From Tistrella mobilis (GTDB lineage Bacteria > Pseudomonadota > Alphaproteobacteria > Tistrellales > Tistrellaceae), in contig NZ_CP121017.1 in the NCBI RefSeq assembly GCF_041468085.1, forward strand, positions 372,001 to 436,000: DNA of 64,000 bases, given 5' to 3'. The notes under the pieces are model-generated. The model saw only the letters and a program-made list of their open reading frames with translations. It had not been told where the DNA came from and did not search any database. This document shows, in pieces, positions 4,444 to 48,523 of this stretch. Position 1 is the first letter of the stretch. Every line of letters begins with the position of its first letter. The translations under genes and the position numbers were made by a program.

Positions 4444-5256
4444 ATGATGCAGAACATCGCCATGGATGATGGCGTGGAGATTGCCGTCGAGCAATCGGGC
4501 AACCCCGAGGGCCCGGCCCTGGTGCTGGTCCATGCATTGGCAGTCGACCACACGGTCTGGGATCTGGTGGCTGCACCCATGCGCGCCAGCCGGCGCATCG
4601 TGGCCATCGACATCGCCGGCCACGGCATGAGCGGCGTGCGCAGCTCCACGACCGACACTCCGCAGACCCTCGACCGTCTGGCCGATGACGTCGAGCAGGT
4701 GGTCGCGGCGCTGGGCATCACCCGGGCCGATTTCGCCGGGGTGTCGATCGGCGGCATGATCGGTCAGGTGCTGGGTGTGCGCAACCCGGCCTGGCTGCGC
4801 AGCCTGACCCTGGTCTGCACCGTCTCCGACGTGCCGGACGAGGCACAGGCGATGTGGGACGCCCGCATCGCGGCCGTGCGCGACCAGGGCATGGATGGCC
4901 AGGTCGATGCGACGCTGGAGCGCTGGTTCACCCCGGCCTTCCGCGATCTCGCACCCTCGGCGCTGGACCAGGTGGCGGCCATCATCCGCACCACCCCGCC
5001 CGAGGGGTTCATCGCGGCCGCCCATGCCATCAAGGGCCTGGCGATGGGGGCGAAACTGCCGGCCGTGAAGGTGCCGACACTCGTCGCCTCGGGCGCCCAG
5101 GATGCCGGCTCGCCACCCGAAGCCGGCCGCGCCATCGCCGCCGCCATCCCCGGTGCCCGCTTCGAACTCCTCGACCCCTGCGGCCATATGGGCCCGATCG
5201 AGGCGGCGGAACCGCTGTGGAAGCTGATGGACGCGCATCTGACCGCAGCGGGGTGA
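4444..5256 (+). CDS. Alpha/beta hydrolase, 3-oxoadipate enol-lactonase-like
   Basis: Soluble serine hydrolase of the alpha/beta fold. The layout resembles PcaD-type enol-lactonases and related esterases: oxyanion region LVLVHALAVDHTVWD, nucleophile elbow GVSIGG with S101, acid D220 in ASGAQDAG, and histidine H248 in CGHMGP; a helical cap lies between about residues 125 and 195. All three catalytic residues are present, so it should be active. A CGGAGAAC ribosome-binding stretch precedes the start, where two in-frame ATGs (4444 and 4447) lie side by side. It converges on the LysR gene with 14 bp between. No other aromatic-degradation genes are next to it, so the specific substrate is unknown and a pcaD symbol is not justified. 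Confidence 0.82.
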   Translation: MMQNIAMDDGVEIAVEQSGNPEGPALVLVHALAVDHTVWDLVAAPMRASRRIVAIDIAGHGMSGVRSSTTDTPQTLDRLADDVEQVVAALGITRADFAGVSIGGMIGQVLGVRNPAWLRSLTLVCTVSDVPDEAQAMWDARIAAVRDQGMDGQVDATLERWFTPAFRDLAPSALDQVAAIIRTTPPEGFIAAAHAIKGLAMGAKLPAVKVPTLVASGAQDAGSPPEAGRAIAAAIPGARFELLDPCGHMGPIEAAEPLWKLMDAHLTAAG

Positions 5257-7182: not shown

Positions 7183-7256
7183 TCCGTCGCGCGGGAGGCG
7201 AGCCCTCTCGCGCCCCGCTCCCCTTTTGGGGGCCATGACATCGGGAGACGGAGCCC

Positions 7257-7913
7257 ATGGATGTCGACCTGATGATCCGGGTCTTCCCCTTCTTCGCGGA
7301 AGCCGCCTGGACAACGGTGCAGATCTCGGTTCTGGCACTGGTTCTGGGCCTCGCCATGGGGGCATGCGGTGCTGCGGCGCGGCTGTCGCGTGTTGCCGTC
7401 ATCCGTTTCGTCGGTGCGGCCTATGTCAGCCTGTTCCGCGGCACGCCCTGCCTCATTCAGCTCTTCGTGCTCTATTTCGGCGGGCCGCAGATCGGGATCG
7501 AGCTGGACCCGTTCGCGGCCGGCGTCATCGGGCTCGGCATCAATATCGGGGCCTATATGACCGAATCGATCCGGGGCGCGATCCTGGCCGTCGATCGCGG
7601 CCAGACCGAAGCCGCGCGCAGCCTGGGCATCGGCCGTGGCCAGACCATGGTCCGGGTGATCCTGCCTCAGGCCGCCCGGCTGATGATCCGGCCGCTCGGC
7701 GTCAACACCATCGCCCTGATCAAGGGCTCGGCCCTGGTATCGGCCATCTCGCTGGTCGAACTCACCTATACCGCCCAGCGCTATATCGGCTCCACCTACA
7801 AGCCGTTCGAGATGTTCGCGATCGCGGCGCTGTTCTACATGGTGGTGATCTGGGTGGCGCTTCAGGCGATCGGCTGGCTCGACCGGCGCTTTGCGATCGA
7901 CGGGGGGCGGTGA
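7257..7913 (+). CDS. Amino-acid-type ABC transporter permease 1
   Basis: Integral membrane permease of the HisMQ type, 218 residues with about five membrane segments. It carries the cytoplasmic EAA loop, here EAARSLGIGRGQTMVRVILP, that docks on the ATPase, and the family segment SLFRGTPCLIQLFVLYFG. It starts 74 bp after the binding protein and is followed by permease 2 after a single base. Works as a heterodimer with the next gene product. Confidence 0.9.
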   Translation: MDVDLMIRVFPFFAEAAWTTVQISVLALVLGLAMGACGAAARLSRVAVIRFVGAAYVSLFRGTPCLIQLFVLYFGGPQIGIELDPFAAGVIGLGINIGAYMTESIRGAILAVDRGQTEAARSLGIGRGQTMVRVILPQAARLMIRPLGVNTIALIKGSALVSAISLVELTYTAQRYIGSTYKPFEMFAIAALFYMVVIWVALQAIGWLDRRFAIDGGR

Positions 7914-7914
7914 C

Positions 7915-8574
7915 ATGGAAGGCCTCGATTTCTCGGTCGTGCCGCCCTATGCCGATCTGATCCTGACGGGCGCCCTCTGGACCGCGGTGCTGACGATCTC
8001 GGCAGCGGCGGTCAGCTTCGCCGGCGGCATCGGCTTTGCCGTCGCCACCATGTACGGGCCCTGGTTCGTCCGCCTGCCGGTGCGCGGCTTCGCCTGGCTG
8101 TTCATGGGCACGCCGCTGCTGCTGCAGCTGTTCCTGATCTATTTCGGCCTGGTCCAGATCGGCATCGACGTTCCGGCTCTGGTCGCCGGCATCATCGGCC
8201 TCGGCCTGCATTTCGCGGTCTACAACGCCGATGTCATCCGCGCCGGCATCACGGCCGTCGATCCCGGACAGAACGAGGGTGCGCGCAGCCTGGGGCTCAG
8301 CCGCTATCAGAGCTTCCGCCATGTGATCGTGCCCCAGGCGGTGCGCTCGGTGGTGCCGCCCATCGGCAACAACCTGATCGCGCTGCTGAAGGAATCGGCG
8401 CTGGTCTCGGTGATCGGCGTCGCCGAACTGGTTCATGCCGCCCAGCTTGCGATCAGCGAGACCTTCCGGCCCTTCGAGTTCTACATCGTCGCGGCCGCGC
8501 TCTATTACGTCCTGAACCTGATGCTCGAAGCGGGCCTGCGCCTGATCGAGAAGCGCGTGGAGGCGACGCGATGA
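7915..8574 (+). CDS. Amino-acid-type ABC transporter permease 2
   Basis: Second HisMQ-type permease subunit, 219 residues. The ATG at 7915 sits one base after the stop of permease 1 and was preferred over an upstream TTG at 7891 that would overlap the previous gene. Its EAA loop is [20 protein letters not shown], and [16 protein letters not shown] matches the corresponding segment of permease 1. Its stop codon overlaps the ATPase start (ATGA), implying coupled translation. Confidence 0.9.
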
Positions 8575-9347
8575 CGACGACCAGTTCCTCCGCCCCCCGG
8601 CCGATGGTCGAGGTCCGCAATGCCCATAAGCGCTATGGCGCGCTCAAGGTGCTGAAGGGCATCGACCTCACCGTCGGCCGTGGCCGGATCATCGCGATCA
8701 TCGGCCCCAGCGGTTCGGGCAAAAGCACCCTGCTGCGCTCGATCAATCATCTGGAAACGCTGAACGAGGGCGAGATCTTCCTCGACGGCGTCCAGGTGAA
8801 CGCGCCCCTGACCGGGGCGGCCTTCGAGCGGCACATCAATGCGGTGCGCCAGCAGATGGGCATGGTCTTCCAGCACTTCAATCTGTTCCCGCATCTGACG
8901 GTCGGCCGCAACGTCACCCTGGCGCTCACCCTGCTCAAGGGTATGAGCGAGGCCGAGGCCCGCGAGGTGGCGCGGGAGCAGCTGGCGAAGGTTGGCCTCG
9001 CCGATCGCATGGACACTCATCCGGCCCGGCTGTCGGGCGGGCAGAAGCAGCGGGTCGCCATCGCCCGGGCGCTCGCCATGGGGCCCAAGGTGATGCTGTT
9101 CGACGAGGCGACATCGGCACTCGACCCCGAACTGGTTGACGAGGTCAATCTGGTGATGAAGCAGCTCGCAGCCGAGCACATGACCATGCTGATCGTCACC
9201 CACGAGATGCGGTTCGCCGAAGAGGTCGCCGACGAGGTGCTGTTCATGGATGGCGGCGTGGTCGTGGAACAGGGTCCACCGGCCGAGATCTTCCGCAAGC
9301 CCCGGCAGGAGCGTACCCGCGCCTTCCTGCGCAAATACCTCGCCTGA
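8571..9347 (+). CDS. Amino-acid-type ABC transporter, ATP-binding subunit
   Basis: Cytoplasmic ATPase powering the importer, 258 residues, GlnQ/HisP type. Walker A is GPSGSGKST, the Q-loop segment is [15 protein letters not shown], the signature is LSGGQKQR, Walker B is [15 protein letters not shown], and the switch histidine is in IVTHEM. Its start overlaps the permease 2 stop by four bases. The gene ends five bases before the next ATG candidate, so the dimethylformamidase-like gene is very likely in the same transcript. Confidence 0.93.
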
Positions 9348-9351
9348 CGGG

Positions 9352-11004
9352 ATGACCGCCATGAACGTCGCCCCCGGTAACCTCGCCGCCTGGCCCGATT
9401 ACGGCCTCACCGCCGCGCAGCGGCGCATTGCCGTGCTTGGCCATACCTATGAATATCCCGGCATGGATGGCGCCCGGGGTGAGATCTGGTGCTATACCGA
9501 CCGGCTCTCCTATGCGCCGGGCGATACGGTCGCCTTCCACGTCTCCTCGACCGCACGGCAGTGGCGGCTGGAGATCGCCCGTGACGGCGCCGTGTTCGAG
9601 GTGGTGCATGTCGAGGAGGGGCTCACCACGGGCCACCACGACACCCCTGATCAGTGCTCGGTGACCGGCTGTGGCTGGCCGGTGGCCCATCGGCTGGTCA
9701 TACCGGCCGGCTGGCGTTCCGGCGCCTATCGGGTGACGGCCACCGCGGCGGGTGCCGATGGGGCGCCGATCATCTGTCACCACCTGTTCATCGTCACTAC
9801 GGCGGGCCATCATCGCCTGCCGGGCCGGGTGCTGCAGATCGCCGCCACCGGCAGCTGGACCGCCTATAACACCTGGGGCGGATCCAACCACTATCAGGGC
9901 ATCACGGGGCCCGAGCGCAACCAGTATGCTCCGCGGGTCAGCCTGGAACGGCCCTTCTGCCGCGGCTTCGTGGTCCTGCCGCCCGAGGCGCCGCGGGTGC
10001 CGCTGGAGGTGCCGGTGCCGCCGGCCATGCCGCCGCGCTACCCGCATATGGAATGGGCCTATGCGACCGGGCATTCCAGGAAATACGCCTCGGCCGGCTG
10101 GGCCTCTTACGACGGGCATTTCTTCCGCTGGGCGGAGCGGGCCGGCTATGCCGTCGACCTCGCCAGCCAGCACGAGCTGCATTACCGCCCCGAGATTCTG
10201 TCGCGCTATGACTGTGTGGTCTTCGTCGGCCATGACGAGTACTGGACGGCGGAGATGCGCGACGCCGTCGATGCCTATGTCGAGGCGGGCGGTCGGGTCG
10301 CACGTTTCGCCGGCAACTTCATGTGGCAGACCCGGCTTGAAGACGATGGCCGCACCCAGGTCTGCTACAAATACCGCGCCCGCGCCGAAGATCCGCTCGC
10401 CGGCACACCCCGGGTCACCACCTCGTGGGAAGCGGCGGAGATCGGTCGGCCGGGGGCCCTGACCTTCGGGCTGGACGCAACCCGCGGCCTTTATGTCGGC
10501 TGGGGCGGCTGCGCCCCGCGCGGCGTGCGCGGCTTCCCGGTCTACCGCCCGGAGCACTGGGCCTTTGCCGGTACGGGGCTCTATTACGGCGATCTGCTCG
10601 GCGCCGATTCCCATGTCTTCGGCTACGAGGTCGACGGGCTCGACTATGTCATCCGCAACGGCCTGCCCGAGCCGGCCCCCGGAGCACAGGTCCCGGACGG
10701 GCTGCAGATCCTGGCGCTCGGCCTGTCGTCGCTGATCGAGGAATCGGCCGATATTCCCGCCGATGATCAGTTCCTGTCCGATGCCGATGCCCGGTTCGTC
10801 GCCGGCATTCTTGCCGGGGGCGATGACCGGGCGGCGGTCGAGCGGGTCAAGCGCGGCTCGGGCGCCATCGTCAACTTCCAGCGCGGCGACGGCGAGGTCT
10901 TCCATGCCGGCAGCTGCGAATGGGTGGCGGGCCTGCTCCGCCGTGACCCGATGGTCGAGCGGGTCACCGCCAATGTCCTCGACCGCTATCTCACCGCACG
11001 TTGA
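9352..11004 (+). CDS. N,N-dimethylformamidase large-subunit-like protein
   Basis: Homologous in architecture to the C-terminal part of the large (beta) subunit of N,N-dimethylformamidase, an iron-dependent amidohydrolase. Family features visible are an N-terminal beta-sandwich part (about residues 20-165), the segment WTAYNTWGGSNHY, the patch PHMEWAYATGHSR, and the strongly conserved YDCVVFVGHDEYWTAEM followed by GGRVARFAGNFMWQTR. At about 550 residues it is shorter than the roughly 760-residue DmfA2 subunit, and no small subunit is encoded nearby. The ATGs at 9352 and 9361 are both plausible; 9352 is kept. The context (amino-acid-type importer, aminotransferase, BKACE) suggests it opens an amide bond of an imported compound; dimethylformamide itself is only one possibility. 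Confidence 0.75.
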   Translation: MTAMNVAPGNLAAWPDYGLTAAQRRIAVLGHTYEYPGMDGARGEIWCYTDRLSYAPGDTVAFHVSSTARQWRLEIARDGAVFEVVHVEEGLTTGHHDTPDQCSVTGCGWPVAHRLVIPAGWRSGAYRVTATAAGADGAPIICHHLFIVTTAGHHRLPGRVLQIAATGSWTAYNTWGGSNHYQGITGPERNQYAPRVSLERPFCRGFVVLPPEAPRVPLEVPVPPAMPPRYPHMEWAYATGHSRKYASAGWASYDGHFFRWAERAGYAVDLASQHELHYRPEILSRYDCVVFVGHDEYWTAEMRDAVDAYVEAGGRVARFAGNFMWQTRLEDDGRTQVCYKYRARAEDPLAGTPRVTTSWEAAEIGRPGALTFGLDATRGLYVGWGGCAPRGVRGFPVYRPEHWAFAGTGLYYGDLLGADSHVFGYEVDGLDYVIRNGLPEPAPGAQVPDGLQILALGLSSLIEESADIPADDQFLSDADARFVAGILAGGDDRAAVERVKRGSGAIVNFQRGDGEVFHAGSCEWVAGLLRRDPMVERVTANVLDRYLTAR

Positions 11005-11050: not shown

Positions 11051-12427
11051 ATGGCCACCCATGCAGCCCCCGCCGCCGGCGACAACCGGCCGCCCTCGCA
11101 TCTCTTCTATCAGGCCCGCCTGCGCCGGCCGCTGGCCAGCCGCGCCGAGGGCATCTACATCTGGGACGAGACCGGTCGCCGGGTGATCGACGGTTCCAGC
11201 GGCGCCATGGTGGTCAATATCGGCCACGGCAATCCGCGGGTGCTGGAGGCGATGAAGCGGCAGATGGATGCCGCCACTTTCATCTACCGCCTGCATTTCG
11301 AGAACGAGCCGGCCGAACGTCTGGCTGCGGCGCTCGCCGATCGCTGCCCGGCCGGGCTCGACCGGGTGTTCTTCGTCTCGGGCGGGTCGGAAGCGGTCGA
11401 ATCCTGCCTGAAGCTTGCCCGGCAATATGCGGTGGCGACCGGCCAGGGCAGCCGCTTCAAGGTCATTTCGCGCTTCCCCTCCTATCACGGCAGCACGCTG
11501 GGGGCGCTGGCGGTGACGGGACACGCCGCCTTCTCGGCGCCCTTCGCGCCGATGATGCACGAAATGCCGAAGATCCCGGCCCCCACCGCCTATCTCGACC
11601 GCGACGGGCTCGACATGGCGGCCCGCGGCCGGCGCTATGCCGATATGCTGGAAGACGAGATCCGCCGCCAGGGTCCTGAAACGGTGCTGGCCTTCATCAT
11701 GGAGCCGATCGGCGGCGCCTCCACCGGCGCCCTGGTCGCGCCCGACAGCTATTACCCGCGCATCCGCGAGATCTGCGACCGCTATGGCGTGCTGCTGATC
11801 CATGACGAGGTGATGTCGGGCGCCGGCCGCACCGGCCGTTATCTGGGCGGTGACCATTGGGGCATCACGCCCGATCTGGTGGCGCTCTCCAAGGGGCTGG
11901 GGGCGGGCTATGTGCCGCTCGGTGCCATGATCGCGTCGGAGAAGCTGGTCCGGCCGGTGCTGGATGCCGGCGGCTTCCAGCACGGTTTCACCTATGCCGG
12001 CAATCCGCTGGCCTCTGCCGCCGGCCTTGCTGTGCTCGACGAGATCGATGCCCACGACCTGATGGGCAATGCCGCCCGGATGGGCGCCCTGCTCAAGGCG
12101 CGGCTCGACGCCCTGAAGCCCCGTTTTCCCTTCATCGGCGATGTCCGCGGCAAGGGGCTGCTGCTTGCCGTGGAGTTCGTCTCCGACCCCGAGACCATGG
12201 CGACCCTGCCGCGGGAGCTGAACGCCCATGCCCGCGTCGTCGACCTGGCCTTCGAGCGGGGGCTGATCATCTATTCCCGCCGCACCCGGGGCGGCATCGA
12301 CGGCGATCATTTCCTGGTCTGCCCGCCGATGATCGTCACGGCCGGCCAGATCGACGAGATCATGGCGATCCTCGACGACACCCTGCTCGCGCTCGCCCGC
12401 GAGCTGAACCTGCCCCATTGCGCCTGA
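11051..12427 (+). CDS. Class III (omega) aminotransferase
   Basis: PLP-dependent aminotransferase of fold type I, class III, 458 residues. Characteristic elements in order: FVSGGSEAVESCLKLARQYA (cofactor phosphate region), SYHGSTLGALAVTGH, LIHDEVMSGAGRTG with the conserved Asp that holds the pyridine nitrogen, and LVALSKGLGAGYVPLGAM with the Schiff-base lysine. The ATG at 11051 follows a CGGAG ribosome-binding stretch; the upstream open frame overlaps the preceding gene and was rejected. It lies 46 bp after the dimethylformamidase-like gene and 34 bp before a BKACE gene. Likely converts an amino acid produced by the upstream hydrolase to the keto acid used by the BKACE; pyruvate or 2-oxoglutarate would be the acceptor. 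Confidence 0.88.
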   Translation: MATHAAPAAGDNRPPSHLFYQARLRRPLASRAEGIYIWDETGRRVIDGSSGAMVVNIGHGNPRVLEAMKRQMDAATFIYRLHFENEPAERLAAALADRCPAGLDRVFFVSGGSEAVESCLKLARQYAVATGQGSRFKVISRFPSYHGSTLGALAVTGHAAFSAPFAPMMHEMPKIPAPTAYLDRDGLDMAARGRRYADMLEDEIRRQGPETVLAFIMEPIGGASTGALVAPDSYYPRIREICDRYGVLLIHDEVMSGAGRTGRYLGGDHWGITPDLVALSKGLGAGYVPLGAMIASEKLVRPVLDAGGFQHGFTYAGNPLASAAGLAVLDEIDAHDLMGNAARMGALLKARLDALKPRFPFIGDVRGKGLLLAVEFVSDPETMATLPRELNAHARVVDLAFERGLIIYSRRTRGGIDGDHFLVCPPMIVTAGQIDEIMAILDDTLLALARELNLPHCA

Positions 12428-13885: not shown

Positions 13886-14049
13886 GGCAGGGTGCCTCCC
13901 TCTGTCGCCTTGGCATCCTCAATTGCACAGAAAATTTTATAGCACAACAAATTAATCACCCATGGCCGGATGGGGCGCCACCGTTGGTGCCGCTGCCGGC
14001 GGAGGCTTTTACCCCTACGTGTATGTAACTTATTAAGCTTAAATTTCCC

Positions 14050-14076
14050 CGAGTGGTAGCCCTATACAGCCACTCG
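14050..14076. promoter_or_regulatory. Inverted repeat upstream of XRE regulator
   Basis: A perfect inverted repeat CGAGTGG-N13-CCACTCG lies 32 bp before the start of the XRE-family gene and contains a TATACA that could be its -10 box. A 10-bp palindrome TTAAGCTTAA (14033-14042) lies just upstream. The spacing and position fit an autoregulatory operator; no experimental support. Confidence 0.45.
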
Positions 14077-14108
14077 CGTTCGTTGCGGACGGCACGCATA
14101 GTCCTGCT

Positions 14109-14540
14109 ATGACGAGCATTCCGCCGAACCGCATCCGTGAAATGAGAGGCCGTGCCGGACTGACGCAGGAGGCATTGGCCAACGCGATCGGTCAGACCCG
14201 GCAGGCCGTGCATCGCCTGGAGACCGGCCGCACCGGCCTGACCGAGGCGACGCTGCGCCGGATCGCAGCCGCGGTCGGGTGTGAGGCCTGGCAGCTGCTG
14301 GCCGGGTCGGAGACGGCGGATGACGTGCGGGCCGCGGACCTGGTATCGCCGGCCGAGGTGCGGATGGTGATCCTGGCGGTGGAGCGCACGCTGGCCAATC
14401 GCGGCATCGCAGCCAGCCCCGACCAGCGCGCCGACATGGTGACCTCGATCCTGAGCAATTACGCCCGCCTGTTCCGCGGCCTGGACCAGGACACCCTGCA
14501 GCGCATCGTCGAGACGTCTCAGGTGATTGTGCGGATCTAG
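14109..14540 (+). CDS. XRE-family helix-turn-helix regulator
   Basis: 143-residue DNA-binding protein. Residues 8-62 form a lambda-repressor-like HTH (IREMRGRAGLTQEALANAIG, then TRQAVHRLETGRTGLTEATL). The C-terminal 75 residues are helical and not recognised. It diverges from the small unknown protein at 13505-13885 and probably regulates it and itself through the inverted repeat in between. Same arrangement as at 34.7-35.5 kb, although the two regulators are otherwise different in length and tail. Confidence 0.85.
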   Translation: MTSIPPNRIREMRGRAGLTQEALANAIGQTRQAVHRLETGRTGLTEATLRRIAAAVGCEAWQLLAGSETADDVRAADLVSPAEVRMVILAVERTLANRGIAASPDQRADMVTSILSNYARLFRGLDQDTLQRIVETSQVIVRI

Positions 14541-14803
14541 AGTCGCCTCTTTTGGGCTTGCGAATTAAGTTGTGGGCTCATGAAAAAATAAAACCGAGAG
14601 TATCATTATTCGCATGCATGTGTTCGAGTTCTATTTATGTATTGCGTGATTTTTTCTGGGGTAATTATTTAAAAGTTGATCGCGCGCCATTCAGTACGGG
14701 AATGGCCGACGCGACGGGGCTGTAGCGTCCGGATATGCAACTGGCCCGCTGGGCGTTGAAATAATGCGCAAGGTGCACTATTTTGGAAGTGGAGATTCCA
14801 TGA

Positions 14804-15034
14804 ATGCCTACTATCGTGCGATTCGGGAATCTCAAGGTCCAGATGTTCGCTGATGATCACAAACCGCCCCATTTTCACCTTCTGACACCGGATTATGAGG
14901 CTTTGATCAAGCTTGCCGATTTTTCGGTGATAGCGGGACGGATTGACGGGCGAAGCTATGAAATCGCCACCAGATGGGCGGCGAATAATCGGGAGCTTCT
15001 TGCGCATGAATGGGAGCGGCTCGATCAAAGATGA
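14804..15034 (+). CDS. DUF4160-family small protein
   Basis: 76-residue protein of the DUF4160 family. Family hallmarks are the start MPTIVRFGNLKVQMFADDHKP, the conserved PPHFH motif in the first third, and the C-terminal WAANNRELLAHEW. Its function is unknown; the family usually sits directly before a DUF2442 gene, as here, where the two reading frames overlap by 29 bases. GGAG at about 14791 precedes the start. The upstream 263-bp region (14541-14803) is AT-rich and holds no other gene I can support, which hints at acquired DNA. Confidence 0.8.
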   Translation: MPTIVRFGNLKVQMFADDHKPPHFHLLTPDYEALIKLADFSVIAGRIDGRSYEIATRWAANNRELLAHEWERLDQR

Positions 15035-34718: not shown

Positions 34719-35114
34719 TCAATCGGCCGACAGCCGAAGCGTGGTCAGATACCGCAGCAGATGCCGCGCGCCCTCGGCCGCGAGGCGCAGATGCCGGGTC
34801 CGGGCGTCTTCATCCAGCTCCGGATCGTCGGCGATCGAGACATGCAGCCCCACCAGCCAGGCCTGAAACGCGGCCCCTGACACCGACCCCGCCGTCACCC
34901 CGACTGCCCGCGCCATCACGGCATTGCGCAGCGCATCCAGCGCCAGCGCCAACCCCGGCTCCGCGGTCACATCGACCCAGCCGCCGGCGATCTGGTCGTC
35001 CAGGATTGCCCAATCGGTGGCGAGGGTAGAGACGGGGCAGGGGCCGGCCGGCCGCGCGGCCTCCGTCTCCGGTTCAGGTCTTTCTTCCGCCACGGTCATC
35101 TCCCTGCACCCCAA
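34719..35114 (-). CDS. Small protein of unknown function, paralogous to 13505-13885
   Basis: 131-residue protein with no named domain that I recognise. It shares with the 13505-13885 product the CPVS-x-L-x-x-DW motif, a Leu/Ala-rich helix with ALDALRNAVMARA, and the C-terminal RHLRLAAEGARHLLRYL. No signal peptide or membrane span. It ends 34 bp after the last CRISPR repeat and diverges from the XRE regulator at 35221. An internal start MTVAEERPE (35099) is equally likely. The repeated pairing with a divergent XRE gene suggests a function tied to that regulator. Confidence 0.65.
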   Translation of the reverse strand: MGCREMTVAEERPEPETEAARPAGPCPVSTLATDWAILDDQIAGGWVDVTAEPGLALALDALRNAVMARAVGVTAGSVSGAAFQAWLVGLHVSIADDPELDEDARTRHLRLAAEGARHLLRYLTTLRLSAD

Positions 35115-35170
35115 AAAAACCTCACTTCACCCTGCTCCACCCCGGGGAAAGCAGCGGCTCACGCTAATTT

Positions 35171-35201
35171 GAGGACTATAGTCCGTGGTTTTATGATCCT
35201 C
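35171..35201. promoter_or_regulatory. Controller-protein-like operator upstream of XRE gene
   Basis: A perfect 12-bp palindrome GGACTATAGTCC (35173-35184) is followed directly by GTG and a second, imperfect half (TTTTATGATCC), the whole being bracketed by GAGGA and TCCTC. This closely recalls the C-box operators of restriction-modification controller (C) proteins, which contain GACT-(T)ATAGTCCGTG followed by a second site, just before the controller gene. Here it ends 20 bp before the XRE start. Confidence 0.6.
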
Positions 35202-35220
35202 AAGACCACTAGCCTCGGGC

Positions 35221-35481
35221 ATGCATCCGCTCGAACGCGTCGCCCGAAACCTCCGCCGCCTGCGCGTCCTCCGGGGCCTTTCACAAGAGGCTCTGGCGGT
35301 GGATGCGGGTGTGGATCGCACCTACATTAGCCGCTTGGAGCGACGGTTGGAGAATCCCACTGTCGCCGTGCTTGATCGTCTGGCGGGAGCGTTGAAGTGC
35401 GATATCAGAGAATTTTTCGATGACGTGAAGGGGGAAGCGGCCGGAAATCTGATGCGAGGCAGGAAAAGAAATTCTTTTTGA
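35221..35481 (+). CDS. Small XRE-family regulator, controller-protein-like
   Basis: 86-residue DNA-binding protein that is almost only a helix-turn-helix domain: VARNLRRLRVLRGLSQEALA, then VDAGVDRTYISRLERRLENP and TVAVLDRLAGALKCDI. Size and sequence fit the C proteins that control restriction-modification genes as well as other small phage-type repressors. No methylase or endonuclease gene is nearby; instead the next gene, 28 bp downstream in the same direction, is the AlbA_2 gene, which it probably controls. The C-terminal 15 residues are already encoded by AT-richer DNA, like the next gene. Confidence 0.85.
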   Translation: MHPLERVARNLRRLRVLRGLSQEALAVDAGVDRTYISRLERRLENPTVAVLDRLAGALKCDIREFFDDVKGEAAGNLMRGRKRNSF

Positions 35482-35509
35482 ATTGCCCTTATCGTAAATG
35501 GAGGTGTAA

Positions 35510-36910
35510 ATGGAGAATATATATAAATTATTCTCAAAGAATTTCGATGATATCGATGCGGATGATCTCGTAATTCTCAAGGATATAAATGAAGGATGGT
35601 TTGTCGAATATAAGGAAGATATTCCAAAGCCTGATGCAATTGCAAAATATATGACTTCTTTTGCAAACACATATGGTGGGTGGATATTCTTTGGAATTGC
35701 GGAACACTCAAAAGAAAATCCTGTGGCAGGCAGTTTCCCTGGTATAAAGCGGGGGGATGCCGAAAAGTTACTCCAGACCATCCGGAATGTTGCGGCAAAT
35801 AATTGTGAACCTGTTCCCTTTTTTAATAAAAAGGCTGTATGGGGGCCATGTGAAAGCATCGGGCTCTGCAAAGATAAATGTGTAATTATTCTCCAAGTCC
35901 CTCAGGGGGGACATGCTCCTTATATTCATAAAGATGGACGAATTTACCGGAGAGTTGGAGATGGCTCAGAGCCTAAGCCGGAAACTGATAGGTTCTTGCT
36001 TGAGAAGCTATTCTTACGATCGCAGGAGATTAGAAATTCCCACCGAGATAATATTCGTGCCTCTCTTCAGCAAATTTCATTTGATGAGCATAATGCATAT
36101 ATGAAGATCTTCTTCATATCAGACTTCTGGATGGAGCGAGAGGTGTGGAGATTTCTAGAAATTCACGATATAAAGAGAATCTTAGGGAAATTGAGCGATT
36201 TTTATCGTATTGATTTTGATACCATTCATAGAAATGTAAACGGATTTACTTGTCGGCAAGTGGGAAATAACGATCCCGCAAAGAATGTTATGATGTGGAA
36301 AGCATCTCATAATCTTGACAATGAATTTACATTGCCCATACGTAAAATATTCATTGAAGATGTTTCTTCTGTGCCCGAACACATCAATGAATATAAATAT
36401 GGAAAGAGATTTATGGATATATGTCGCAAGCGTAATTTTAAAGAACTGATGATTCTCGATTTAAATTTGTTGCTTCCTGCGCTGATGGCTATATCCCAAA
36501 TATTAGTTATATTTAATCAGGAATTCAATACTCATGAGAGCGTGCATATCAAAATTTGTATGACTGGAGTAAAAAGAACAGTACCTTTTCTGGATGTTTC
36601 ATACGCGCTAGATCAATTCCAGAATCTGGGGGTGCCGATGGTTCTGGATGATGAGCTTGTAATTTTTCCTGGAAGTACTCCAGATAGCTATCTTGAGGAA
36701 AAAATTCCGAAATATGGGGGTATTGAAAATAAACAGACAGAATTGGCTACTAAATTGTTCGTAAATGTTATGATGGCTCTAGGTTTCTCGCTTCGATCAG
36801 ATCCGCAAGATGAGCGTTCAGGAACTGATCAATATGTTCTAGAATTACAAAAAGCAGGCTTGAGAGCGTCAAGAATTTGGAGGGGCGATGATGATGTTGA
36901 AGATTTTTGA
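35510..36910 (+). CDS. AlbA_2 (Schlafen-type) domain protein, AT-rich foreign gene
   Basis: 466-residue protein. The N-terminal about 150 residues form an AlbA_2 domain: E33 and K35 in WFVEYKEDIPK, then FANTYGGWIFFGI (residues 51-63) and a RVGDGSEPK segment, the pattern of Schlafen-like nucleic-acid-binding/nuclease domains. The remaining 300 residues are not recognised; they contain no obvious ATPase or membrane motif. Base composition is dramatically lower in G+C than everything around it (by eye near 40 percent against about 70), with A/T-ending codons, so the gene was acquired recently. A GGAGG ribosome binding site stands before the ATG. Its position between a CRISPR array, a C-protein-like regulator and a transposase remnant suggests a mobile defence gene, by inference only. 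Confidence 0.8.
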   Translation: MENIYKLFSKNFDDIDADDLVILKDINEGWFVEYKEDIPKPDAIAKYMTSFANTYGGWIFFGIAEHSKENPVAGSFPGIKRGDAEKLLQTIRNVAANNCEPVPFFNKKAVWGPCESIGLCKDKCVIILQVPQGGHAPYIHKDGRIYRRVGDGSEPKPETDRFLLEKLFLRSQEIRNSHRDNIRASLQQISFDEHNAYMKIFFISDFWMEREVWRFLEIHDIKRILGKLSDFYRIDFDTIHRNVNGFTCRQVGNNDPAKNVMMWKASHNLDNEFTLPIRKIFIEDVSSVPEHINEYKYGKRFMDICRKRNFKELMILDLNLLLPALMAISQILVIFNQEFNTHESVHIKICMTGVKRTVPFLDVSYALDQFQNLGVPMVLDDELVIFPGSTPDSYLEEKIPKYGGIENKQTELATKLFVNVMMALGFSLRSDPQDERSGTDQYVLELQKAGLRASRIWRGDDDVEDF

Positions 36911-36933
36911 ATAGCAGCGATCTGTAATAATAA

Positions 36934-37098
36934 TCAGAACCCCTGAGCCCAGCGTCTCAACCCGATGAACATGATTTTCCAGGGCTGGCTGATGAACTTG
37001 TTCCAGGCATGACAGCACACGGCGATGTGCACAGAGAGGGCAATCACCCGACGGCCGGCCCCTCTGGCGAGGCTTTCATGCCACGGGGTCAAGGTGAT
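36934..37098 (-). pseudogene. Transposase C-terminal remnant (IS630-like)
   Basis: Read on the minus strand this stretch encodes about 54 codons ending in a stop: the order is ITLTPWHESLARG, then SVHIAVCCHAWNKF, then ISQPWKIMFIGLRRWAQGF. The ending WN-x-(F/L)-I-x-QPW-x-IM-x-IGLR-x-WA is what I recall from C-termini of IS630-type transposases. A stop codon lies directly upstream in frame and no start or catalytic residues exist, so it is a fragment. It probably marks the edge of the acquired segment carrying the AlbA_2 gene. No terminal inverted repeats are seen. Confidence 0.5.
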
Positions 37099-46517: not shown

Positions 46518-46703
46518 TCAGCCGGCCAGCCTCTGGCGCCGCGCTTCCTCGTCGGCCAGGACACGTTGCGTCATGGCGCGCAACCGCCGTGAGACAGCTT
46601 CATCCGTCTCACTTGGCGGCAGGGCTTCGAAGATCCTGCGCAGATCTGCGACAAGGGAGGGTTCTGCCCGGGTATCGTTGATCTGATAAATTCGCTTGTT
46701 CAT
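46518..46703 (-). CDS. Small charged protein coupled to the nitrilase-like gene
   Basis: 61-residue, highly charged, probably helical protein, not recognised. Its ATG (46703-46701) overlaps the TGA of the upstream 607-residue gene (ATGA), so the two are translated together; this coupling is the main evidence that it is real. The C-terminal half (RRLRAMTQRVLADEEARRQR) could form an amphipathic helix. Role unknown; a small partner or regulator of the nitrilase-like protein is the natural guess. Confidence 0.6.
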   Translation of the reverse strand: MNKRIYQINDTRAEPSLVADLRRIFEALPPSETDEAVSRRLRAMTQRVLADEEARRQRLAG

Positions 46704-48523
46704 CTGTCAGCGCCTGATTTTGGCAGGTGATCACCGGGAGTAGACGTCAAGTTAGGACGGGGCGTCGGTTTGTTCAATGACTTCCTGCGTGGCAACACCA
46801 TCGGATCGGAAGGCTTCACCGCCCGGACGCCTGCCAGCGAGAGGAAGAAGCTGTTCTTGGACCGACCATCGATGGATATCTGTTGACGATGCTCGCGGAC
46901 AAGGCACAAGGCGAGAGCCTGATCGTCCGGGCCGATCGACAGTTCCTGTGCCTGGCCACCAGGCTGTTTCCAGAGTGCGATCGTGCGGATGTTCGGCGCG
47001 CCGGCCTGATGCTGCCGGTCGATCAGGGCCGTGGACGTGAAGGTCAGGACCGATGAGCCCGGATCCTCGGCAAGGACGGTGGCATATCGGCCCGGCCAAC
47101 GTTTCTCGAGTTGTGGTCCATCCATCAGCAGCGCCACGACGAGACTGGGGCCGATGGCGTTGATCACCGGCAGGACCGGGTCGAAGCGGGCGAGATCTTC
47201 ACAGATAAGAACCGCCAGGGACAGATCACTGTCGATGACACTGAAATGGCAGGTACGGCCACTCACGTCGATATATTCCCACCACTCGCGCGTGGGGTCG
47301 AGAACATGCCCCATATGGTAGCGCCGGATCTGATCACCGTTGAGCTTCCAGCGATGGTGCTTGCTCTGCGTCCATTTGCGTTGGACGGCGCCGTCTGCCG
47401 TCGACGCGGTGAAGGCGAGATTGCGGGGCATTGCCTCGGAGTTGGCGGGCTTGCCGATGGCGCCGGAGATGAAGAGCTGCAGCCTCGGATGGCGTCGTGC
47501 GACCTCTTTCGCCAGGTCCTCCGCGATCTCGGTCGGCAGGGCGCATTCCGGAAGAAAGACGGCATGGATCTCGCCCAGTTCCTTCTCGCCTGCCTGGATC
47601 AGACCGGCGATCATACCGGCCAGTTTTGAGACGTTGGTCGGCCCGGAGAGGGCATCATCATAGCCTGCGACATCGACGGTGAAGTATCCGGGTTCTTCCG
47701 CGTCTCTACGCTCGGCCTTGAACAGGCTGCCATTCACGCGTGCGGGCCACGGTATCAACAGGATGCCGAGCGGCCGGTGATGTTCCGGATCGGTCGCGAG
47801 GCCCGAGATGAGCCAGTTGGCTTCCACCATGCTCCGGGGCGGCAGCAACGCCAGATTGTGCGACATCGACCGCAACGTGCAGCCGACATCGGGAAGCCGG
47901 CTTTTCGGGAAGACGACGGCCTCCAGCGGCGTGACGGCAAGCGTCAGGCTCTGCGGGAAATGCGGCAGTTTCGGCATAACCGCAGATGCAGCCGTCGCGT
48001 CTCGCGTCGTGTAGGCGGGTTCCGCCGTAATGGTTGCACCGAGCACGGCCCGCGTGAACGGGGATATTCTGTCCGGAGACGGCCCGTTGGCAGGGGTGTG
48101 GGTCTTCGGCACGAACCCCATACCCTCTGCCGCTTCGTCTGCGATGCACATCAAGGTGATCAGCTTGCGGGCAAGGGGATGGGAAGGCGCCGTGTGGGCC
48201 AGAGCCTGGAGATCGACGTGATCTGCGCCGCCTGTGACCTCATGCCACAATCGTTTGGTGTACGAATCCGGCACGCCTTTGTCGCGCCAGCCGCGTCCGG
48301 CGGCTCGGATGGAACTTTTTTCAGACGAGGCCATCGAGGCATGCGCCGATTGATGAGCGTAGAGCCAGGCATGTGAGTAGAGGCCCGTCCGCTCGATCAG
48401 TGTCGCAGTGACGCCAAACAGATCCGGAGGCCATTCCGGACAGGTCGACCAATCCGGATCGTCACCACCCGGATTTGTTCCCGAGGGCATCATGTTTCTG
48501 ATCACGGCCCCGATCGTCGTCAT
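46700..48523 (-). CDS. Nitrilase-like (carbon-nitrogen hydrolase) protein with unknown N-terminal region
   Basis: 607-residue protein. The C-terminal half (about residues 250-510) has the nitrilase-superfamily layout with a complete Glu-Lys-Cys triad: E326 in HAVFLPECALP, K388 in KWTQSKHHRW and C441 in LAVLICEDLARFD, on the expected alternating strands (LGILLIPWP, LQLFISGAIG, CHFSVIDSD, LVVALLMDG). The N-terminal about 240 residues (YSHAWLYAHQSAHASM onward) match nothing I recognise and are mostly helical; the last 40 residues are Pro/Lys-rich. Base composition appears somewhat lower in G+C than the housekeeping neighbours. It is coupled to the 61-residue gene and isolated from metabolic genes. 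Nitrilase domains of this non-metabolic sort occur fused to some defence reverse transcriptases, but no RT is present here. Substrate unknown. Confidence 0.7.
   Translation of the reverse strand: MTTIGAVIRNMMPSGTNPGGDDPDWSTCPEWPPDLFGVTATLIERTGLYSHAWLYAHQSAHASMASSEKSSIRAAGRGWRDKGVPDSYTKRLWHEVTGGADHVDLQALAHTAPSHPLARKLITLMCIADEAAEGMGFVPKTHTPANGPSPDRISPFTRAVLGATITAEPAYTTRDATAASAVMPKLPHFPQSLTLAVTPLEAVVFPKSRLPDVGCTLRSMSHNLALLPPRSMVEANWLISGLATDPEHHRPLGILLIPWPARVNGSLFKAERRDAEEPGYFTVDVAGYDDALSGPTNVSKLAGMIAGLIQAGEKELGEIHAVFLPECALPTEIAEDLAKEVARRHPRLQLFISGAIGKPANSEAMPRNLAFTASTADGAVQRKWTQSKHHRWKLNGDQIRRYHMGHVLDPTREWWEYIDVSGRTCHFSVIDSDLSLAVLICEDLARFDPVLPVINAIGPSLVVALLMDGPQLEKRWPGRYATVLAEDPGSSVLTFTSTALIDRQHQAGAPNIRTIALWKQPGGQAQELSIGPDDQALALCLVREHRQQISIDGRSKNSFFLSLAGVRAVKPSDPMVLPRRKSLNKPTPRPNLTSTPGDHLPKSGADR

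Follow-up and report, generated by a model that had tools for sequence, protein, structure and literature searches.

Putative Anti-Phage Module Combining a Nitrilase-Superfamily Protein and a Small Basic Partner in Tistrella mobilis

Introduction

Class 3 defense reverse transcriptases (DRT1/UG5) are recognized by a C-terminal nitrilase domain with catalytic Glu-Lys-Cys residues. DRT1 has the nitrilase domain as its effector part, and the cysteine of this domain is needed for immunity, the outcome of which is abortive infection; activity depends both on assembly and on a lid at the C terminus (PMC13275509). In a literature search confined mostly to open-access papers, to the exclusion of most subscription journals and preprints, nitrilases with a working role in phage defense were found only within the work on DRTs.

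The window analyzed here, a stretch of 64,000 nucleotides from the genome of Tistrella mobilis, contains a gene pair that an earlier note, made from the DNA alone, had singled out as a possible stand-alone relative of the DRT nitrilases with a small protein as its partner. In the present study the pair and its relatives were compared with the DRTs, with ordinary amidases, and with known defense systems in order to evaluate this proposal.

Results

A nitrilase-superfamily protein with a complete triad

The larger gene of the pair and the features of its catalytic domain, in window coordinates, are as follows.

46700 to 48523, minus strand: P0001, a 607-amino-acid nitrilase-superfamily protein and putative defense effector (open reading frame and translation, confident model, 167 related loci)
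46814 to 47788, minus strand: nitrilase-superfamily catalytic domain, residues 246 to 570 (fold search, Foldseek)
47546 to 47548, minus strand: Glu326 of the triad (65 of 65 aligned relatives)
47360 to 47362, minus strand: Lys388 of the triad, within KHHRW (65 of 65 aligned relatives)
47201 to 47203, minus strand: Cys441, the nucleophile, within ICEDLAR (65 of 65 relatives, partly owing to the search pattern)

The AlphaFold2 model of P0001 alone, built with 65 sequences, was confident (pLDDT, 86; pTM, 0.89). In the fold search, residues 246 to 555 had a nitrilase fold, with Z scores of up to 18.6 against nitrilase-superfamily enzymes, no single one of which stood out as the structural match, and the catalytic domain was also matched by Foldseek (E = 8.7e-8). 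With this fold and its Glu-Lys-Cys residues, P0001 belongs to the nitrilase superfamily. The complete triad reported earlier was confirmed residue by residue, with Glu326, Lys388, and Cys441 identical in all 65 aligned relatives. The scan that collected the relatives used the pattern ICEDLARx[DE] or LLMDGPQ, and because of this the conservation near Cys441 and at residues 465 to 471 arose partly by selection; that of Glu326 and Lys388 was unaffected by the patterns. Further residues fixed in the family (H389, H390, W392, Y402, E416, R475, W476, P488, G489, D552, and R554) suggest that the enzyme has a definite substrate and is not a decayed domain.

When P0001 was searched alone, the Pfam, NCBIfam, PHROGs, and PADLOC models yielded no useful match, matches to the PDB by sequence were at chance level, and the predicted structures of viral proteins held no match.

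The N-terminal region

47789 to 48523, minus strand: helical N-terminal region of P0001, residues 1 to 245, without known relative (conservation, model, and structure searches)

The first 240 or so residues had been described as resembling no known protein, a description that stood up to profile searches, which gave no family match, and to comparison with solved structures. The predicted fold of residues 1 to 245 is a set of helices and a short strand region, with F36, W79, D129, K207, and G214 as conserved positions. When this region was modeled alone (pLDDT, 84), Foldseek gave no match below an E value of 3, and no structural match reached a Z score of 2 among 105 chains; the lack of such matches does not prove a new fold.

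Kinship with the nitrilase domain of defense reverse transcriptases

Neither P0001 nor the 64 other members of the family matched the Pfam model CN_hydrolase (PF00795) at E values of up to 1. PADLOC matches among the 65 members were to RT_UG5-nitrilase (26 members; best E value, 2.9e-6), RTasNitrilase (7 members), and Drt1a (3 members), a link that was visible only with the whole family and not with P0001 alone. Two of the RT_UG5-nitrilase matches, in frames of 585 codons, came with positions (673 to 788 and 659 to 718 of the 907 model positions), and both fell in the nitrilase part of the model. In hhalign, the family was aligned to DRT nitrilase domains (two UG5 and four DRT1-like) with a probability of 94 (E = 1.4e-7; score, 64), versus 66 (E = 5.6e-5; score, 44) for seven ordinary nitrilases from the same genome, a ranking that is only suggestive because both reference alignments were small but that agrees with the PADLOC matches. 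These profile comparisons are suggestive of the effector domain of the class 3 DRTs as the nearest relative of the family, and they support the kinship that had been proposed.

P0001 has the C-terminal nitrilase domain with catalytic Glu-Lys-Cys of a class 3 DRT. No reverse transcriptase domain was matched within the protein, its profile alignment with full-length UG5 proteins covered the nitrilase part only, no RT-UG5 match was found near the P0001 gene, and ten upstream neighbors of relatives gave no reverse transcriptase match. The only RT-UG5 match in the window genome was a separate frame of 518 codons on contig C1. Since a reverse transcriptase was found neither in the protein nor beside its gene, and one of that kind occurs elsewhere in the genome only as this separate open reading frame, P0001 is not a DRT.

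Members of the P0001 family resemble the DRT1/UG1 and UG5 proteins in being multidomain proteins whose nitrilase lies toward the C terminus, in the profile-related effector with its Glu-Lys-Cys residues, and in their association with defense. They differ in having no reverse transcriptase domain and a separate small partner gene, in the motif at the cysteine (ICEDLAR, compared to ICSEL or ICYDA), and in length (∼600 residues, compared to ∼1,000 to 1,320). One further frame, of 298 codons (locus L104, positions 1501 to 2136), strongly matched the nitrilase part (positions 678 to 878) of RT_UG5-nitrilase (E = 1.7e-28), and the match included no reverse transcriptase; located beside a flippase-like gene, it is perhaps another nitrilase of the DRT type without a reverse transcriptase.

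With the ordinary amidases (Nit2, formamidase, beta-ureidopropionase, and N-carbamoyl hydrolases), the family shares the fold (Z scores of 16 to 18.6) and the triad, but all 65 members lie below the detection of CN_hydrolase, and the large N-terminal region and the lack of metabolic context also set the family apart. The stretch from Lys388 to Cys441 is longer as well, with 53 residues in P0001 versus 37 in L128. The glutaminase domain of NadE also has ICED at the cysteine and is a structural match (Z = 18.2), but P0001 has no ATP-binding NAD synthase domain (no Pfam match, and the SGGxDS motif is absent from the translation) and is structurally no closer to NadE than to other nitrilases. Apart from the NadE-like open reading frame (ICEDMW), none of the nitrilases from the same genome has ICED; this resemblance is a hint of an amide such as glutamine, but no more. 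A match of the whole protein to a known amidase or NAD synthase family, which the earlier note had named as one finding that would speak against its proposal, was looked for by profile and was not found.

The small gene

46518 to 46703, minus strand: P0002, a 61-amino-acid basic protein (pI 9.9) and putative regulator or partner (same protein in all three species)
46703 to 46762, minus strand: residues 588 to 607 of P0001, an extension through loss of a stop codon (TAG here in both sister species)

The 61-amino-acid open reading frame is a real gene, because all of the differences between the three Tistrella genomes, compared pairwise, were synonymous (4, 5, and 6 synonymous and 0 nonsynonymous changes). 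The start of P0002 overlaps the stop of P0001 as ATGA, from which translational coupling had been proposed. This arrangement is present in the window and absent in both sister species, in which a TAG terminates the large open reading frame after codon 587 and the small one begins 56 bases on. Thus, both the overlap and the 20 C-terminal residues of P0001 are specific to the window genome, and translational coupling is not conserved.

Many members of the family have a codirectional short gene on their 3′ side, and many alphaproteobacterial members are without a clear partner. Eighteen small partners, nearly all of them betaproteobacterial, share the motif GR....E at the N terminus, after which comes a variable tail that is rich in lysine and arginine in several of them. 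In Bradyrhizobium, which has the nearest relatives of P0001, the small gene encodes 58 to 62 residues and is located at +52 to +58, and a four-base overlap like that in the window was found in Vibrio, an acidobacterium, and a viral contig. A pI above 9 was calculated for 32 of 40 candidate small partners, a count weakened by the tendency of spurious open reading frames in GC-rich DNA to be basic as well, and not all of the candidates are proven genes. A single common partner family did not emerge, since an HMM of the betaproteobacterial small proteins did not recognize those of Tistrella and Bradyrhizobium. The small partner is a fast-evolving, usually basic protein that, judged by sequence, is common but neither universal nor one recognizable family. 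The two-gene system suggested in the earlier note therefore holds in part: the small gene is real and lies 3′ of many members, with homology among those of the betaproteobacteria, but in some members no such gene could be detected.

Some loci stand out. The small partner in Cupriavidus (L015, positions 7776 to 8564) has 263 residues, a histone-H1-like tail with repeats such as KTAPTKTVPAKRA, and a pI of 12. In two Bradyrhizobium loci (L063, positions 11813 to 12307, and L065, just after position 5231), the small gene is replaced by one for a protein of 163 to 165 amino acids, located 12 to 15 bases downstream, that by eye is like a nucleoside 2-deoxyribosyltransferase (YLAGPTVFxP...).

The basic partner and the kinship with the DRT nitrilases can be combined in a reading in which the family is a counterpart of DRT1 without the reverse transcriptase. 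The small protein would bind nucleic acid and control the assembly or release of the nitrilase, in place of the self-made DNA adducts of DRT1, and a protein-nucleic acid sensor would thereby switch on the nitrilase effector. This mechanism is unlikely.

Relatives, their distribution, and their neighborhoods

At least 167 related loci were found on genome contigs, of which 80 were kept and 65 members were aligned. There were 16 matches in plasmid records, 10 of which covered at least 80% of P0001 at 29 to 37% identity. The hosts are mainly Alpha- and Betaproteobacteria, with further members in Gammaproteobacteria, Acidobacteriota, Planctomycetota, and Myxococcota and a copy on a Deinococcus plasmid. 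The family is rare: of 398 genomes sampled from the phylum, 2 had a strong match, one of them being the genome of the window itself. Class labels changed 8 times on the tree of relatives, compared to a minimum of 6, which indicates spread mostly within classes and does not clearly demand transfer between them. No relative was found in phage genome records; among viral contigs, a single-sequence scan found none and a profile scan found four, two of them partial. The Deinococcus member (L013, positions 7224 to 9803) has an open frame of 859 codons with a divergent N terminus and a C-terminal extension, and a gene for a large TPR protein follows it.

The genes in these loci were called with a codon-based script and then scanned with PADLOC. 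Next-door genes included BrxL (E = 0) and GajB (E = 5.7e-233), as well as a CBASS cyclase, ThsB, type I and type II methyltransferases, and a PifA-like protein. In 19 genomes, the genes at most four places from the nitrilase gene matched 128 PADLOC families at an E value of 1e-20, among them PglX, PglZ, BrxL, GajA, GajB, a cyclase, QatA, and DrmMI, with IetA and IetS found twice each, so that genes of BREX, Gabija, CBASS, ietAS, Qat, and DISARM are all represented. As a control, the 147 genes at most four places from ubiD in the same genomes gave no PADLOC match at 1e-20. Defense genes thus accounted for at least 11 of 139 genes near the nitrilase gene (with three large genes left out) and 0 of 147 near ubiD (Fisher P = 0.0003, an optimistic value because genes that share an island are not independent of each other). 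As a core gene, ubiD is a less strict control than an accessory gene of patchy distribution would be. Many neighbors in the survey had no PADLOC match, nor did ten further neighbors tested singly. The relatives therefore cluster with known defense systems, as anti-phage genes do, and some of them are on plasmids; they are not confined to the housekeeping context that the earlier note had named as contrary evidence.

A Methylorubrum plasmid locus has cyclase, E2, TIR, VPA1262, and SIR2 genes around the family member, and Rhizobium and Agrobacterium plasmid loci have DGQHR, radical SAM, and PIN-like genes. Two Pseudoduganella loci (L025 and L036) are multisystem islands, with what appears to be a CBASS-type cyclase just upstream in L025 and GajB just upstream in L036. 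Both carry a homologous pair of genes for proteins of 738 and 361 amino acids, which is probably the IetA/IetS match counted twice. Several relatives have a large codirectional gene just upstream (HSP90-like and patatin-like by eye, BrxL, or GajB), but because these genes share no kinship with one another, an operon with a second large gene was rejected. The neighbor that recurs in the family, if general regulators, mobile-element genes, and other common kinds are set aside, is the small partner.

The same evidence bears on whether the pair is a toxin-antitoxin or addiction module, in which the nitrilase would inhibit growth, the small protein would hold it in check, and the pair would be kept for the stability of plasmids or islands and not primarily for phage defense. 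Such a module would fit the arrangement in two genes, the usually basic and sequence-variable nature of the small partner, carriage on plasmids (12 PLSDB records with a strong match), and the start-stop overlap in some members (L014, L075, and L099). However, the small gene was not found in all members, proximity to restriction, BREX, Gabija, and CBASS genes is characteristic of defense, and the 245-residue N-terminal region is left unexplained, which makes this a rather unlikely account. It is quite improbable that the protein is an accessory metabolic amidase or nitrilase that breaks down environmental amides or nitriles and rides on plasmids and islands: the family has no conserved metabolic neighbor gene, it is more distant by profile from ordinary nitrilases than from DRT nitrilases, and none of the 65 members matches CN_hydrolase, although the nitrilase fold and triad, the many hosts from soil or the rhizosphere, and the nearly fixed surroundings of the active site (KHHRW, WWE, and DGPQ..RW), which suggest one definite substrate, would suit such an enzyme.

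The Tistrella locus

In the window, ubiD lies upstream of the pair and a gene for a calcineurin-like metallophosphoesterase lies downstream, and in the window genome and its sisters no defense gene adjoins the pair. The earlier description of the pair as alone among housekeeping genes is thus true of the window but not of the relatives. The pair was present in all three Tistrella genomes searched, with 97% identity and the same flanks (L001 to L003), and dN/dS for P0001 within Tistrella was ∼0.1. The GC content of P0001 was 0.622 and its GC3 was 0.73 (0.61 to 0.62 and 0.68 to 0.73, respectively, for the pair), compared to a GC3 of 0.83 to 0.89 for eight other genes of the window, and this lower GC content fits acquisition from elsewhere. 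Acquisition as a defense gene followed by domestication for a host function would agree with the retention of the pair in all three genomes, the low dN/dS (with a dN of 0 for the small protein), and the lower GC content but is very improbable, as intact defense genes can also be under purifying selection and no link to a host pathway was seen.

Two other parts of the window differ in composition. About 10 kb from the pair, positions 35510 to 36910 on the plus strand encode a 466-amino-acid protein with a Schlafen/AlbA_2 domain, in a patch (positions 35001 to 37000) of 38 to 50% GC compared to 67% for the window. This protein had no match in either sister species; the gene is a recent acquisition and possibly another defense gene. 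A second, weaker GC dip (0.576) was found at positions 14001 to 15000, with a Cro/C1-type HTH protein at 14109 to 14540.

Discussion

A function of the pair in defense is probable, and the best explanation of the evidence, which we consider fairly probable, is that the pair belongs to an undescribed anti-phage module that has spread horizontally. Whether the small protein regulates the enzyme is evenly balanced.

As a defense module, P0001 would join a helical sensor or regulatory region (residues 1 to 245) to a nitrilase-type amidase effector (residues 246 to 570). By analogy with DRT1, the sensor region and the small basic partner, which may bind P0001, would hold the nitrilase domain and, on infection by a phage, release or assemble it. 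The freed nitrilase might then use Glu-Lys-Cys catalysis to hydrolyze a C-N bond in an essential metabolite, and growth would stop or the cell would die before the phage matures, which would amount to abortive infection without a reverse transcriptase.

No description of the family was found in the open-access literature, and PADLOC of 2023 has no model that covers it. The nitrilase effector of the DRTs was already known; what is probably new here is a defense-associated nitrilase effector without a reverse transcriptase. A compact family without the DNA synthesis machinery would provide a simpler enzyme with which to find the substrate of the DRT1 nitrilase, and it would point to nitrilases as a class of effectors in general use in bacterial immunity, like TIR and SIR2 domains.
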